Position numbers and translations under genes: made by a program. Below, one piece after another: positions 15,092 to 17,936 of a stretch of DNA of 20,724 bases. Location of the stretch: positions 1 through 20,724 of IMG/VR virus record IMGVR_UViG_3300042450_000312; one strand, given 5' to 3'. Within the stretch, counting starts at the first letter, position 1. The number at the start of each line of letters is the position of its first letter. The DNA is from a virus. The notes beneath the pieces were generated by a model. The model saw only the letters and a program-made list of their open reading frames with translations, ran no database searches and was not told the DNA's origin.

Positions 15092-15261
15092 TTTTTCTTT
15101 ATTTTGCCTTTAAACTCTTTTGTAACACCTTTATCAACTATTTGAGTAAAGTACCCAACTTTAATAAATTCTTTCATCTTATCGCTTAATACAAGGTCGT
15201 AGTAGTTACCTCTATAATACTTCCTACCGTTATGCGATATATCTACTGAACATTTGTACAT
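15088..15261 (-). CDS. small SH3-like phage protein (57 aa), overlooked gene
   Basis: A 57-residue frame from ATG 15261-15259 to TGA 15090-15088. It begins M-Y-K-C-S-V-D-I-S-H-N-G-R-K-Y-Y, has L-S-D-K-M-K-E-F-I-K-V-G-Y-F in the middle, and ends in K-K-K. The arrangement of an N-terminal strand, Y-x-x-G turn, L-S-D helix and G-Y-F strand resembles small SH3/Ig-like proteins encoded after phage capsid genes (DUF7210-like in style, not verified). Support that it is real comes from its GTGA overlap with the adhesin gene and a promoter-like element 3 bases before its ATG. It may be a minor head or decoration component. The basic tail could bind DNA or a partner. Confidence 0.7.
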   Translation of the reverse strand: MYKCSVDISHNGRKYYRGNYYDLVLSDKMKEFIKVGYFTQIVDKGVTKEFKGKIKKK

Positions 15262-15263
15262 TC

Positions 15264-15290
15264 ACAAAGATACTAAGATTTTTAGCAATA
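15264..15290 (-). promoter_or_regulatory. promoter-like element, copy 2 of a 27-base repeat
   Basis: The minus strand reads TTGCTAAAAA, two variable bases, then TTAGTATCTTTGT. TATCTTTG at 15272-15265 matches the Bacteroidota -7 consensus TAnnTTTG. The 27-base block is identical to the one at 17902-17928 at 24 of 27 positions. The upstream TTG is only 13 bases from the -7 box, shorter than the usual spacing. The box ends 3 bases before the ATG of the 57-residue gene, so a transcript from it would be leaderless or nearly so. Confidence 0.45.
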
Positions 15291-15295
15291 ATAAA

Positions 15296-15916
15296 CTATT
15301 TGGCGAAACGCTTTTTTTGGGATTCACACATCTTTAACCTTGTTTCTTCGGTATGTGGTTTTCTTGGTATGCCTTTTTGAGCTTTAGATATTTTTTGTTT
15401 AGTTTCTTCTGAATGTGGTTTCTTCTTAAATCCTTTTTGATTTTGTAGTAGTTTAGCAATATGTTCAGCAGTTTTCTTTTTGCCTTTATTTGCCTGGCTT
15501 ATTTTTTGTTTTTCTTCTTCAGTATGTTTTCTATTAGTTCCTGCAATAGATAAATTCTTTCTCCATTCTTCAGTTATTATTTTACCCTTACCTGAATCAG
15601 ACATTCTCTTTTTACTTTCTTCGCTCATAAAACCACTCTTATCAGTAGTAGCCGTATAACGCAAATTAAGACCATTTAAGACACTTTCGTAATACTCTTG
15701 GTAATATCGTTCATAATAGTTTAAATCTTCAACCTGGCACTCCTTAACGATTTCTATTGTATGATTAATAAAACCATATTTTTCAATAGAAGCAAATAGT
15801 TTAGGTTGTCCTTTACATTTGTGATTTTTGTAGGCATTATGCCTTTTAGAATAATTAGTCGTTTGACCAATATAAATCTTCCCACTTGGAGAAGTGATTT
15901 TGTAGATTCCAATCAT
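15296..15916 (-). CDS. GIY-YIG homing endonuclease with NUMOD3 repeats (206 aa)
   Basis: A free-standing homing endonuclease. The N-terminal nuclease domain (1-90) has G-I-Y at 3-5, Y-I-G at 15-17, the catalytic-type Arg25 in S-K-R-H, and a conserved Glu69 in Y-Y-E-R-Y-Y. The C-terminal half carries four to five NUMOD3 DNA-binding repeats of the form (H)-(S/T)-E-E-x-K-x-K-(I/M)-S-x-(A/S)-x-K-G, starting near 98, 131, 149, 168 and 188. The protein is highly basic. All expected nuclease motifs are present, so it is probably active. It sits between the capsid terminator and the promoter-like element of the next gene, separated from the flanking operon genes, as expected for a selfish insert. Its target is probably the intron-less form of this locus in related phages. 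Confidence 0.92.
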   Translation of the reverse strand: MIGIYKITSPSGKIYIGQTTNYSKRHNAYKNHKCKGQPKLFASIEKYGFINHTIEIVKECQVEDLNYYERYYQEYYESVLNGLNLRYTATTDKSGFMSEESKKRMSDSGKGKIITEEWRKNLSIAGTNRKHTEEEKQKISQANKGKKKTAEHIAKLLQNQKGFKKKPHSEETKQKISKAQKGIPRKPHTEETRLKMCESQKKRFAK

Positions 15917-15920
15917 AAAA

Positions 15921-15928
15921 CAAATATA
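15921..15928 (-). promoter_or_regulatory. possible promoter of the homing endonuclease gene
   Basis: TATATTTG on the minus strand matches TAnnTTTG, with a TTG 17 bases upstream (in the loop and 3' arm of the capsid terminator), within the Flavobacterium -33/-7 spacing range. The box ends 4 bases before the ATG. In AT-rich DNA the match could be chance. Confidence 0.35.
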
Positions 15929-15930
15929 AC

Positions 15931-15963
15931 AAAAAAAGGCTGATACAATTAAGTACCAGCCTT
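15931..15963 (-). terminator. intrinsic terminator after the major capsid gene
   Basis: On the minus strand an 11-bp stem (AAGGCTGGTAC pairing with GTATCAGCCTT, one G-U pair, arms 15963-15953 and 15946-15936) has a 6-base loop TTAATT. It runs into a tract of seven T. It lies 31 bases after the capsid stop codon. Capsid mRNA should end here, so the endonuclease and downstream genes need read-through or their own promoter. Confidence 0.88.
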
Positions 15964-15993
15964 CTTTTATTTTAATTCGTAACTATCTGATTA

Positions 15994-17124
15994 CTAGCTA
16001 TTTCCTAAATCTGCATAAATTGCAGCTGTAGGCAGCATTAGGTTCACCGCTTCGTAGCACTCAATCCTAGCCGTAACAAGGTTTTGCGTAAAATTTGTGC
16101 CATTCTCATAAGAGAAAGTTACATTCATACCTTCAACTTCAACTCTTTCTAAGTAATCTCTATCAAAGATTAACACTTTGTCATCAGTTACCCAAGAAGC
16201 CTCGAATACTGGTGTACCAAAGATAGTCAAACCACCTGCACCGTTAAGAATAACCGCACCTGCACCTGCATAGTAACCTTTGTTGTAAGTAGAGATAATT
16301 AAACGAGCCATTTGATGAGGAGAAACTAACGCATAAGAAGCATTAAAGTTAGCAGTCTTTTGGTTAGCGATTAATTCAATAATTTCTTCAACATCATCAG
16401 TAGCACTGTGGGTTGTTGAACCTGTTGCAGCAGCACTAACAGTACCGAAGAAAGAAGCATTTTCTGCTTTGTAAAAATCTCTAATCAACATACGAGTTAA
16501 AGTTTGCTCGATAAATGGTAAAGATTTCATCATTTGCTTTGAGAAAGTTGCAAAACCAGCGATATAAGCGTTTACAGTCTTAACTTCAGTCAAATCGTAA
16601 TCAATTTGACCTTTAGCTGCACCTTCAGTTTGCGCTGCGATAGCACCTTCTGAACCACTTTCTTTGTAAGTAACAAAAGTACCTGTTGCTGATTGTACAG
16701 TAGGGATTAAATCTCTAAAGTTCAATTTTTGCGAAGGCAAGATTGCTTGTTGTTGGTTGTAAGTAGCTACTGAATCTCCTGTTAAGTTAGATGACAATAA
16801 CATATTACCAACCGCTTTTAAGTTCATAGTGAATGAACCACCTGCTGATTTTAATTCTTTTTCAGCGATAGACATATTTGAATCTAAGTTTTCAGCGATT
16901 TGCTCACCGATAGATTTAGTAGCCAAAGTCTTAGCTGCACTCTTACGAGATACTTCTTCTGCTTGTCTATCCATTTCATCTTTTACTGCTTTGATTTCAG
17001 CTTTAACTGAATCAATACTTTTTTCTACCATCGTAGACACTTCATTTTTTACGCTTAATAAAGCGTTAGCGTTAGCATCAAACTTTGCGTTGATGTCATT
17101 TGCTAGATTTTTAATTTCTTCCAT
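15994..17124 (-). CDS. major capsid protein, HK97 fold (376 aa)
   Basis: This is the shell subunit. Residues 1 to about 100 are a Lys/Glu/Asp/Ala-rich helical region, equivalent to the HK97 delta (scaffolding) domain removed by the prohead protease. The mature part follows, with F-R-D-L-I-P-T-V at 136-143 and F-V-T-Y-K-E-S-G at 150-157 forming the N-arm/E-loop region. Later come V-N-A-Y-I-A-G-F-A-T-F-S-K-Q (about 184-197), A-L-V-S-P and G-L-T-I-F-G-T-P-V-F in the P/A-domain region, and L-I-F-D-R-D-Y near 319. The exact cleavage site cannot be read. The gene starts 2 bases after the protease stop, and a strong terminator follows. Confidence 0.93.
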   Translation of the reverse strand: MEEIKNLANDINAKFDANANALLSVKNEVSTMVEKSIDSVKAEIKAVKDEMDRQAEEVSRKSAAKTLATKSIGEQIAENLDSNMSIAEKELKSAGGSFTMNLKAVGNMLLSSNLTGDSVATYNQQQAILPSQKLNFRDLIPTVQSATGTFVTYKESGSEGAIAAQTEGAAKGQIDYDLTEVKTVNAYIAGFATFSKQMMKSLPFIEQTLTRMLIRDFYKAENASFFGTVSAAATGSTTHSATDDVEEIIELIANQKTANFNASYALVSPHQMARLIISTYNKGYYAGAGAVILNGAGGLTIFGTPVFEASWVTDDKVLIFDRDYLERVEVEGMNVTFSYENGTNFTQNLVTARIECYEAVNLMLPTAAIYADLGNS

Positions 17125-17126
17125 TT

Positions 17127-17831
17127 TTAAAGGTTTAAGAGATTTCTAAATTGTTTTATTTCTTGTATCTTATTGTCCTCTTTCGGCTCGTTGTCCACAG
17201 GAGTAACCACAGTTGGCTCATCAGATTTAACAAGTGAAATAAGTTTTAATAATTCAAATTCAATAAGACCAAATGTTTCATCAGTATAAGTACCATTTTT
17301 AATAGCCTTAACTAAAGTTTTAATTCGGTCTTCTCTTTCTTTTACAGACTTGAAGCCAGTAAAAGGTGTATTAGGATTTGCTCCAAAAGTTACTGCTGAA
17401 CCTTCCCAAAGTTTTACCTCGTAGATTTGCTCAACTTCTTCTTCCATTTCCATAGTGGTTTCTACCGACTTTATTACTTGATAACCAATAGAATGTTGGG
17501 TTATTACACCATCTCTATAAAGTTTCAAAGCATCCTGTCCGTAAGTTGTATCGCTCATTTTAGCTTCAAAGTACAAACCAAAGTTGTCTTCTCTTAAAAC
17601 CATTAGCTTTCCTAAAGGCTTGTAAGTATCGTGTTGCCATAAATAAGCAATTTCAGGCTTTGATGAATCTGGTCCTCTTTCAGCGATAGTCTTTGTAAAT
17701 GCACCTGGCATTATAACATCTCCGTCTAAATCAATAGAATTAAATTGAGAGAAGTAACCTGTTACTATTCCTGTTGCTACATCCAAGTCTTTTATACTTG
17801 CGTCGTAATTCTTGAAACTTATATTTTTCAT
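17127..17831 (-). CDS. prohead maturation protease, HK97 type (234 aa)
   Basis: A serine protease of the HK97 prohead family (peptidase U35/S78). It cleaves the capsid delta domain and itself during maturation. The catalytic residues line up with the family: His67 in L-W-Q-H-D, Ser114 in H-S-I-G-Y, and Glu143 in L-W-E-G-S-A. The N-terminal F-D-x-D-G-D-type segment (I-D-L-D-G-D-V-I-M-P-G-A-F at 33-45) is also typical. The last 70 residues are Lys/Glu-rich and probably form the self-cleaved targeting tail. It lies immediately before the capsid gene. A 105-base leader with a promoter-like element and a terminator-like hairpin precedes its ATG, so protease and capsid may be controlled together. 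Confidence 0.93.
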   Translation of the reverse strand: MKNISFKNYDASIKDLDVATGIVTGYFSQFNSIDLDGDVIMPGAFTKTIAERGPDSSKPEIAYLWQHDTYKPLGKLMVLREDNFGLYFEAKMSDTTYGQDALKLYRDGVITQHSIGYQVIKSVETTMEMEEEVEQIYEVKLWEGSAVTFGANPNTPFTGFKSVKEREDRIKTLVKAIKNGTYTDETFGLIEFELLKLISLVKSDEPTVVTPVDNEPKEDNKIQEIKQFRNLLNL

Positions 17832-17854
17832 AAGCGATTATTTTTATAGTGTTT

Positions 17855-17885
17855 AAAAAAGAGTGAGTAGTTACCTACCCACCCT
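17855..17885 (-). terminator. terminator-like hairpin in the protease/capsid leader
   Basis: On the minus strand, AGGGTGGGTAG pairs with CTACTCACTCT (11 bp, two G-U pairs) around the GNRA-type loop GTAA. Six T follow directly. It lies about 25 bases before the protease ATG and downstream of the promoter-like element, so it would act inside the leader. Intrinsic attenuation, or a structure protecting the mRNA 5' end, are both possible. Confidence 0.65.
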
Positions 17886-17901
17886 AAAACCAAAACACCA
17901 A

Positions 17902-17928
17902 ACTATGATATACAAAGATACTAACTTT
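17902..17928 (-). promoter_or_regulatory. promoter-like element, copy 1 of a 27-base repeat
   Basis: The minus strand reads TTGCTAAAAA, two variable bases, then TTAGTATCTTTGT, with the TATCTTTG -7-type box at 17910-17903. It begins 8 bases after the stop of the minor head gene and lies about 70 bases upstream of the protease ATG. The conservation with 15264-15290 (24 of 27 bases) in otherwise unrelated gaps argues for a functional element. A start site near 17898 would give a leader of about 65 bases containing the hairpin. Confidence 0.5.
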
Positions 17929-17936
17929 TTTAGCAA

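Follow-up and report, generated by a model that had tools for sequence, protein, structure and literature searches.

What controls the supply of head proteins in phages of the Bacteroidetes, where transcription control appears to be little studied? The question is raised by a viral DNA window of 20,724 nucleotides in which a terminator-shaped hairpin stands between a promoter-like box and the genes for the prohead protease and the major capsid protein. An earlier note on the same DNA had described the order as a promoter-like box, an 11-bp hairpin with a GTAA loop, six T and the protease ATG, and the analysis confirmed this arrangement, with the ATG located 23 nt past the T-run (Table 1). Read on the minus strand from the end of the Mu-F-like gene to the protease, the complete order is TATCTTTG-TATAT-CATAGTTTGGTGTTTTGGTTTT-AGGGTGGGTAGGTAACTACTCACTCT-TTTTT-AAACAC-TATAAAAATAATCGCTT-ATG. 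The preservation of this hairpin leader, nearly unchanged among relatives, suggests that capsid production has an inbuilt device for its control or protection. Because the leader is a compact and strongly conserved RNA element with a defined candidate promoter, termination, read-through and protection can all be tested in one reporter.

Putative promoter, start site and conserved unit

The box TATCTTTG matches TAnnTTTG, the -7 element of flavobacterial sigma-A promoters, found at positions -12 to -5 (PMC9723704). This spacing would place +1 near 17908 and give a 5′ UTR of about 77 nt, whose median length in F. psychrophilum is 24 nt. We infer the use of this promoter, and the start near 17908, from the conserved sequence combined with the published geometry of flavobacterial promoters. 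The motif TAnnTTTG by itself is not enriched in the window (39 observed vs 33.5 expected); what supports the TATCTTTG copy as a candidate promoter is its conservation, the box being unchanged across 30 distinct leaders with a pairwise difference of 0%. An E. coli sigma-70 promoter was considered and rejected, as none was found here among the matches listed by the scan and the box is of the Bacteroidetes type. The type of promoter, together with the presence of distant relatives in Flavobacterium, Lacinutrix and Aequorivita MAGs, indicates that the host of the phage group is probably flavobacterial.

Table 1. Features of the protease-capsid region, with positions numbered along the window
Feature	Position	Strand	Remarks
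Intergenic leader region	between the Mu-F-like head gene (end 17937) and the prohead protease ATG 17831	minus	
Putative late promoter, 26-mer TTGCTAAAAAAGTTAGTATCTTTGTA	17911..17936	minus	-7 box TATCTTTG at 17920-17913; recurs elsewhere
Nearly invariant G/U-rich leader segment CATAGTTTGGTGTTTTGGTTTT	17886..17907	minus	0.8% pairwise difference; invariant alignment columns
Terminator-shaped hairpin AGGGTGGGTAG-GTAA-CTACTCACTCT	17860..17885	minus	11 bp, 5 G-C
Invariant T6 (U-run)	17855..17860	minus	17860 doubles as last stem base
AAACAC	17849..17854	minus	outer helix with the GTGTTT part of GGTGTTT, which lies upstream at about 17898-17892
Prohead protease gene (Peptidase_S78)	17127..17831	minus	Pfam PF04586, E 3e-30; PHROG head maturation protease
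Major capsid gene (Phage_capsid, HK97 type)	15994..17124	minus	Pfam PF05065, E 4e-13
Terminator hairpin with T7, closing the protease-capsid unit	15928..15971	minus	terminator scan; position and form kept in relatives
Second copy of the putative late promoter	15263..15288	minus	3 mismatches vs TTGCTAAAAAAGTTAGTATCTTTGTA; ATG of a 57-aa gene at 15261

The complete 26-mer is also found 3′ of the capsid gene in relatives, with 1-4 mismatches, and copies exist in all full-length relatives. A phage-specific promoter consensus can be written as TTGCTAAAAAnnTTAGTAnCTTTGTA. In the window, the second putative late promoter would give a practically leaderless mRNA, with the ATG at the inferred start site. 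Since the late promoter occurs elsewhere without a leader, the 77-nt leader is an added part that is particular to the protease-capsid pair.

The conservation of the element was examined among 68 IMG/VR loci that encode relatives of the protease. All 61 close loci whose contig spans the leader contain it; one of them, L010, is cut within the element. This collection comprises 30 distinct leader sequences, the window included. Pairwise differences were averaged over 41 rows, taking as baseline the fourfold sites of the protease gene, which differ on average by 21.7%. Over the same rows, the mean difference was 0% in the promoter box and in the T5 after the stem, and 0.8% both in the segment CATAG...TTTT and in AAACAC, while it reached 14% in the stem-loop and 16.7% in the 17 nt immediately preceding the ATG. 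As the difference is low in the box, the leader and AAACAC, the constrained unit consists of the promoter box plus 17907-17849, ending after AAACAC.

Pairing within the more variable stem is nevertheless kept. Three alleles of the stem tip exist, namely GGGTAG-GTAA-CTACTC, GGGTG-GTAAAA-CATCC and GGATG-GTAAAA-CATCC, and each of them keeps 10 or 11 pairs. On the protease tree, tetraloop and hexaloop alleles are interspersed, which amounts to about 10 changes, and well supported branches force 5-6 of these. The earlier note had named conservation of pairing in relatives as a test of its proposal, and the pairing was preserved: over the 30 distinct leaders 97.2% of the stem cells pair, and this value falls to 35-68% when the 3′ partners are slid by 1-3 columns. 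Cells with a two-sided change numbered 16, against a shuffle mean of 6.4, and the stem pairs with a two-sided change were two, which is not above the shuffles. Most likely, hairpin tips have been swapped as blocks between co-circulating phages by recombination. Because alleles move as blocks, independent compensatory events are few; the evidence for selection on pairing is good, but it comes from few mutational events.

Possible termination, protection or protein binding by the leader hairpin

The leader is strongly structured. Its 108 nt fold at -26.4 kcal/mol, a value equalled by one of 200 dinucleotide shuffles (z -3.9), and the whole leader is predicted to fold at about -26 to -27 kcal/mol with each of the three stem alleles. 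An RNA G-quadruplex in the G/U segment was not favoured over the hairpin. None of 300 dinucleotide shuffles of the window produced a T6 preceded by an uninterrupted stem of 10 or more pairs, 5 or more of them G-C, and a loose terminator scan of the window found 10 candidates vs 7.5 expected, which is not above chance; since the loose scan is not enriched, it is the strength of the leader hairpin that stands out. In form, it corresponds to an intrinsic terminator, with a G+C-containing stem directly before U6, and it is laid out as in an attenuator, between the inferred promoter box and the ATG of the first gene. Intrinsic terminators and structured 5′ transcribed regions exist in flavobacteria (PMC9723704), and intrinsic terminators are also known in Bacteroides (PMC7366714).

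These features lead us to favour, tentatively, attenuation or partial termination close to the promoter, with a protected 5′ end on the RNA that reads through. According to this proposal, a host-type sigma-A promoter would start the RNA near 17908; the polymerase would first transcribe the nearly invariant G/U-rich sequence, about 24 nt long, and then make the terminator-shaped hairpin and U6. A fraction of the transcripts would end there, giving a leader RNA some 54 nt in length, and the remaining transcripts would read through into protease and capsid. In the read-through RNA, AAACAC would pair back with GGUGUUU, generating one long 5′ hairpin. The level of read-through would probably be set at the G/U segment, by a factor of the phage or host or by the polymerase itself. 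What the sequences show is the anatomy of the leader, its conservation, its paired variation and its specificity to this phage group; termination, its regulation and the factor are inferred. If the attenuator is real, capsid output would be set at the stage of RNA elongation in a phage group that occurs in many metagenomes.

Several observations argue for the attenuator. The U6 directly abuts the hairpin and is invariant (0% vs 21.7% at fourfold sites); all three stem-tip alleles keep 10-11 pairs; the same genomes end the capsid unit with a similar hairpin and T7, an ordinary terminator; full-length relatives carry a leader with promoter, hairpin, U-run and ATG before the replication initiator; and the leader is an added part, absent at the other copy of the same promoter. 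Several points stand against it. On an E. coli-type terminator score, which was our own implementation and serves for relative use only, the leader reaches 12-16, the replication leader 21 and the post-capsid terminator 34. The leader hairpin is thus the weakest of the terminator-like hairpins of the phage group on this scale, and termination may be weak. No competing antiterminator fold was found in the leader, where the alternatives have -3.6 to -8 kcal/mol vs -16 kcal/mol for the hairpin, so regulated read-through would need a trans factor. A scan against PHROGs of ten non-structural proteins of a full-length relative detected no antiterminator (Q, AlpA or other), and several small genes had no match. 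The small number of independent compensatory events in the stem also counts against the attenuator, and a terminator alone leaves the conserved AAACAC unexplained. Of the attenuator or antitermination switch suggested in the earlier note, the conserved, RNA-structured order thus held up, and the attenuator stays the best single mechanism; it is weakened by the lowest E. coli-type score and by the lack of an antiterminator gene or a competing fold in the searches described.

The second suggestion of that note, a 5′ end that protects the mRNA, is a possibility almost equally likely as the attenuator, and AAACAC past the U-run fits a closed structure at least as well. In this case, a closed hairpin from about +10 to +60 would shield the abundant capsid mRNA from 5′-dependent decay with no termination, and an open A-rich spacer of 17 nt would be left for the ribosome. 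The predicted fold has the corresponding form: the outer helix GGTGTTT/AAACAC starts at about +10 from the inferred 5′ end and encloses the hairpin and the U-run in one long closed hairpin of the read-through RNA. This helix is kept beyond the U-run and is nearly invariant, its sole internal change, A to G, retaining the pair (U-A to U-G). The stability of the fold is similar in the three alleles, and the structure lies near the inferred 5′ end, ahead of a gene pair needed in large amount. Stabilising 5′ stem-loops are established in E. coli mRNAs (ompA, papA; cited in PMC3997798). They resemble the phage leader in that the mRNA of an abundant protein carries a stable stem-loop close to its 5′ end, followed by an open ribosome site; they differ from it in that the phage core has the canonical terminator form with an invariant U6, and the host RNA decay enzymes are different. 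For protection alone, neither the invariance of U6 directly after the stem nor that of the mostly unpaired CATAGTTTGG is needed. The attenuator and the protective structure are compatible and do not exclude each other.

The conservation of about 22 nt of mostly unpaired leader would also be expected of a recognition site. A phage or host protein could bind the G/U segment and the hairpin and regulate how the protease-capsid mRNA is translated or degraded, for instance through feedback, and each of the loops GTAA, GCAA and GTAAAA has G as its first and A as its last nucleotide. Such an operator is quite unlikely: loop size varies from four to six nt, and 23 nt of variable spacer separate the hairpin from the ATG, so that a bound protein could not directly cover the start codon. 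Rather unlikely, too, is an extension of the attenuator in which the G/U segment acts as the loading site of a novel phage or host factor that makes RNA polymerase pass the terminator late in infection. This would be a first antitermination switch for capsid genes among phages of the Bacteroidetes, and the same phages would govern their replication initiator through a second leader of the terminator type.

A plain terminator that insulates the pair against read-through from the terminase-portal genes, leaving capsid expression dependent only on the inefficiency of the terminator, appears most improbable. It agrees with the location of a terminator-like hairpin between two gene groups, and the corresponding gap of the distant relative L185 contains a terminator and then a promoter. 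In the phage leader, however, the terminator is 3′ of the promoter, and no TAnnTTTG box was found between the hairpin and the protease ATG, so that the insulator would damp its own promoter. The conserved flanking segment would also be left unexplained.

Comparison with known leaders and search for further copies

In the lambda pR′-tR′ leader with Q, the promoter is followed by a nearby intrinsic terminator that transcripts must pass. Similarly, AlpA, bound to an element in the promoter, allows RNA polymerase to pass an intrinsic terminator located further downstream (PMC9371919). The locus studied here shares with lambda Q and AlpA an intrinsic-type terminator shortly 3′ of the promoter that has to be passed to reach the next genes. 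In contrast to both, the phage leader is 77 nt long, has a Bacteroidetes-type sigma-A promoter and precedes one gene pair rather than a whole late operon, and no homologue of Q, AlpA or another antiterminator was present among the ten proteins scanned. Flavobacterial structured leaders, including Flavo-1, are likewise structured 5′ UTRs located 3′ of TAnnTTTG promoters (PMC9723704), whereas the phage element was found only in one phage group and reached no Rfam threshold. Flavo-1 itself was absent from the window even at E 10, and an Rfam search of the window gave no family at the gathering threshold. The best match was L20_leader (22.4 bits vs a gathering score of 58.7; E 0.019), which also ends in a G+C hairpin and a U-run; in addition to its score far below threshold, it has no other helices in common with the phage leader and belongs to an unrelated gene.

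A covariance model of the element gave one strong match per phage, including four near-full-length records of 30-31 kb. No second copy was detected in the same phages, the next best match having E 0.06 or worse. Two degenerate DNA scans of IMG/VR recovered this phage group only, plus chance matches in coding sequence (L219, L222), and in four host-like MAGs with distant protease relatives there was no element match below E 0.3. Among distant protease relatives (33-49% identity) whose gap was readable, no such hairpin leader was found; in some, a TAnnTTTG box precedes the ATG by 12-39 nt, and in others the genes directly abut. Annotated phage records contained no close DNA match, and a search of the available literature gave no report of a similar leader for capsid genes in phages of the Bacteroidetes. 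An antisense RNA acting in trans on the leader was considered and rejected, because only A-rich 10-11-mers were complementary and these were not present in all relatives.

A leader ahead of the replication initiator in relatives

Full-length relatives carry another structured leader, ahead of the replication initiator (phrog_2562), which is not contained in the window fragment (for example L236:1996-2147, minus; also L258, L266 and L314). Promoter TATATTTG is followed by one hairpin, a short second one, a terminator hairpin with as many as nine T, and the ATG. A terminator was detected in 36 of these leaders, and in every one of the 36 its loop shows complementarity of 7-9 nt to leader sequence lying upstream; with few exceptions, this complementary stretch is the loop region of the first hairpin. 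The pairs of loop sequences covary: TCTCGAC/GTCGAGA, CTCACAAC/GTTGTGAG, ACTCCTAC/GTAGGAGT, ACTCCGAC/GTCGGAGT and CTCTCAC/GTGAGAG. Five leaders (L292, L293, L295, L303 and L309) also gave a chance match of the same or greater length at a more upstream place, and the ACTCCTAC/GTAGGAGT pair is still visible in them. As a control, loops were compared with the leaders of other phages, and a match of 7 nt was reached in only 20%. The best Rfam match of this leader was far below threshold. From these complementarities, it looks like a kissing-loop leader RNA.

With regard to genome content, the window is a 20.7-kb fragment, while the relatives of 30-31 kb are close to full length, with nearly all genes on one strand and a circularly permuted order. 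They contain genes for an Erf-like annealing protein, an exonuclease, a ParB-like protein and replication, all of them missing from the window. Between the capsid terminator and the second putative late promoter, the window has a gene for a GIY-YIG homing endonuclease (15296-15916, minus), which is also present in G004, G005, G007 and G008 and absent in G001, G002, G003 and G006.
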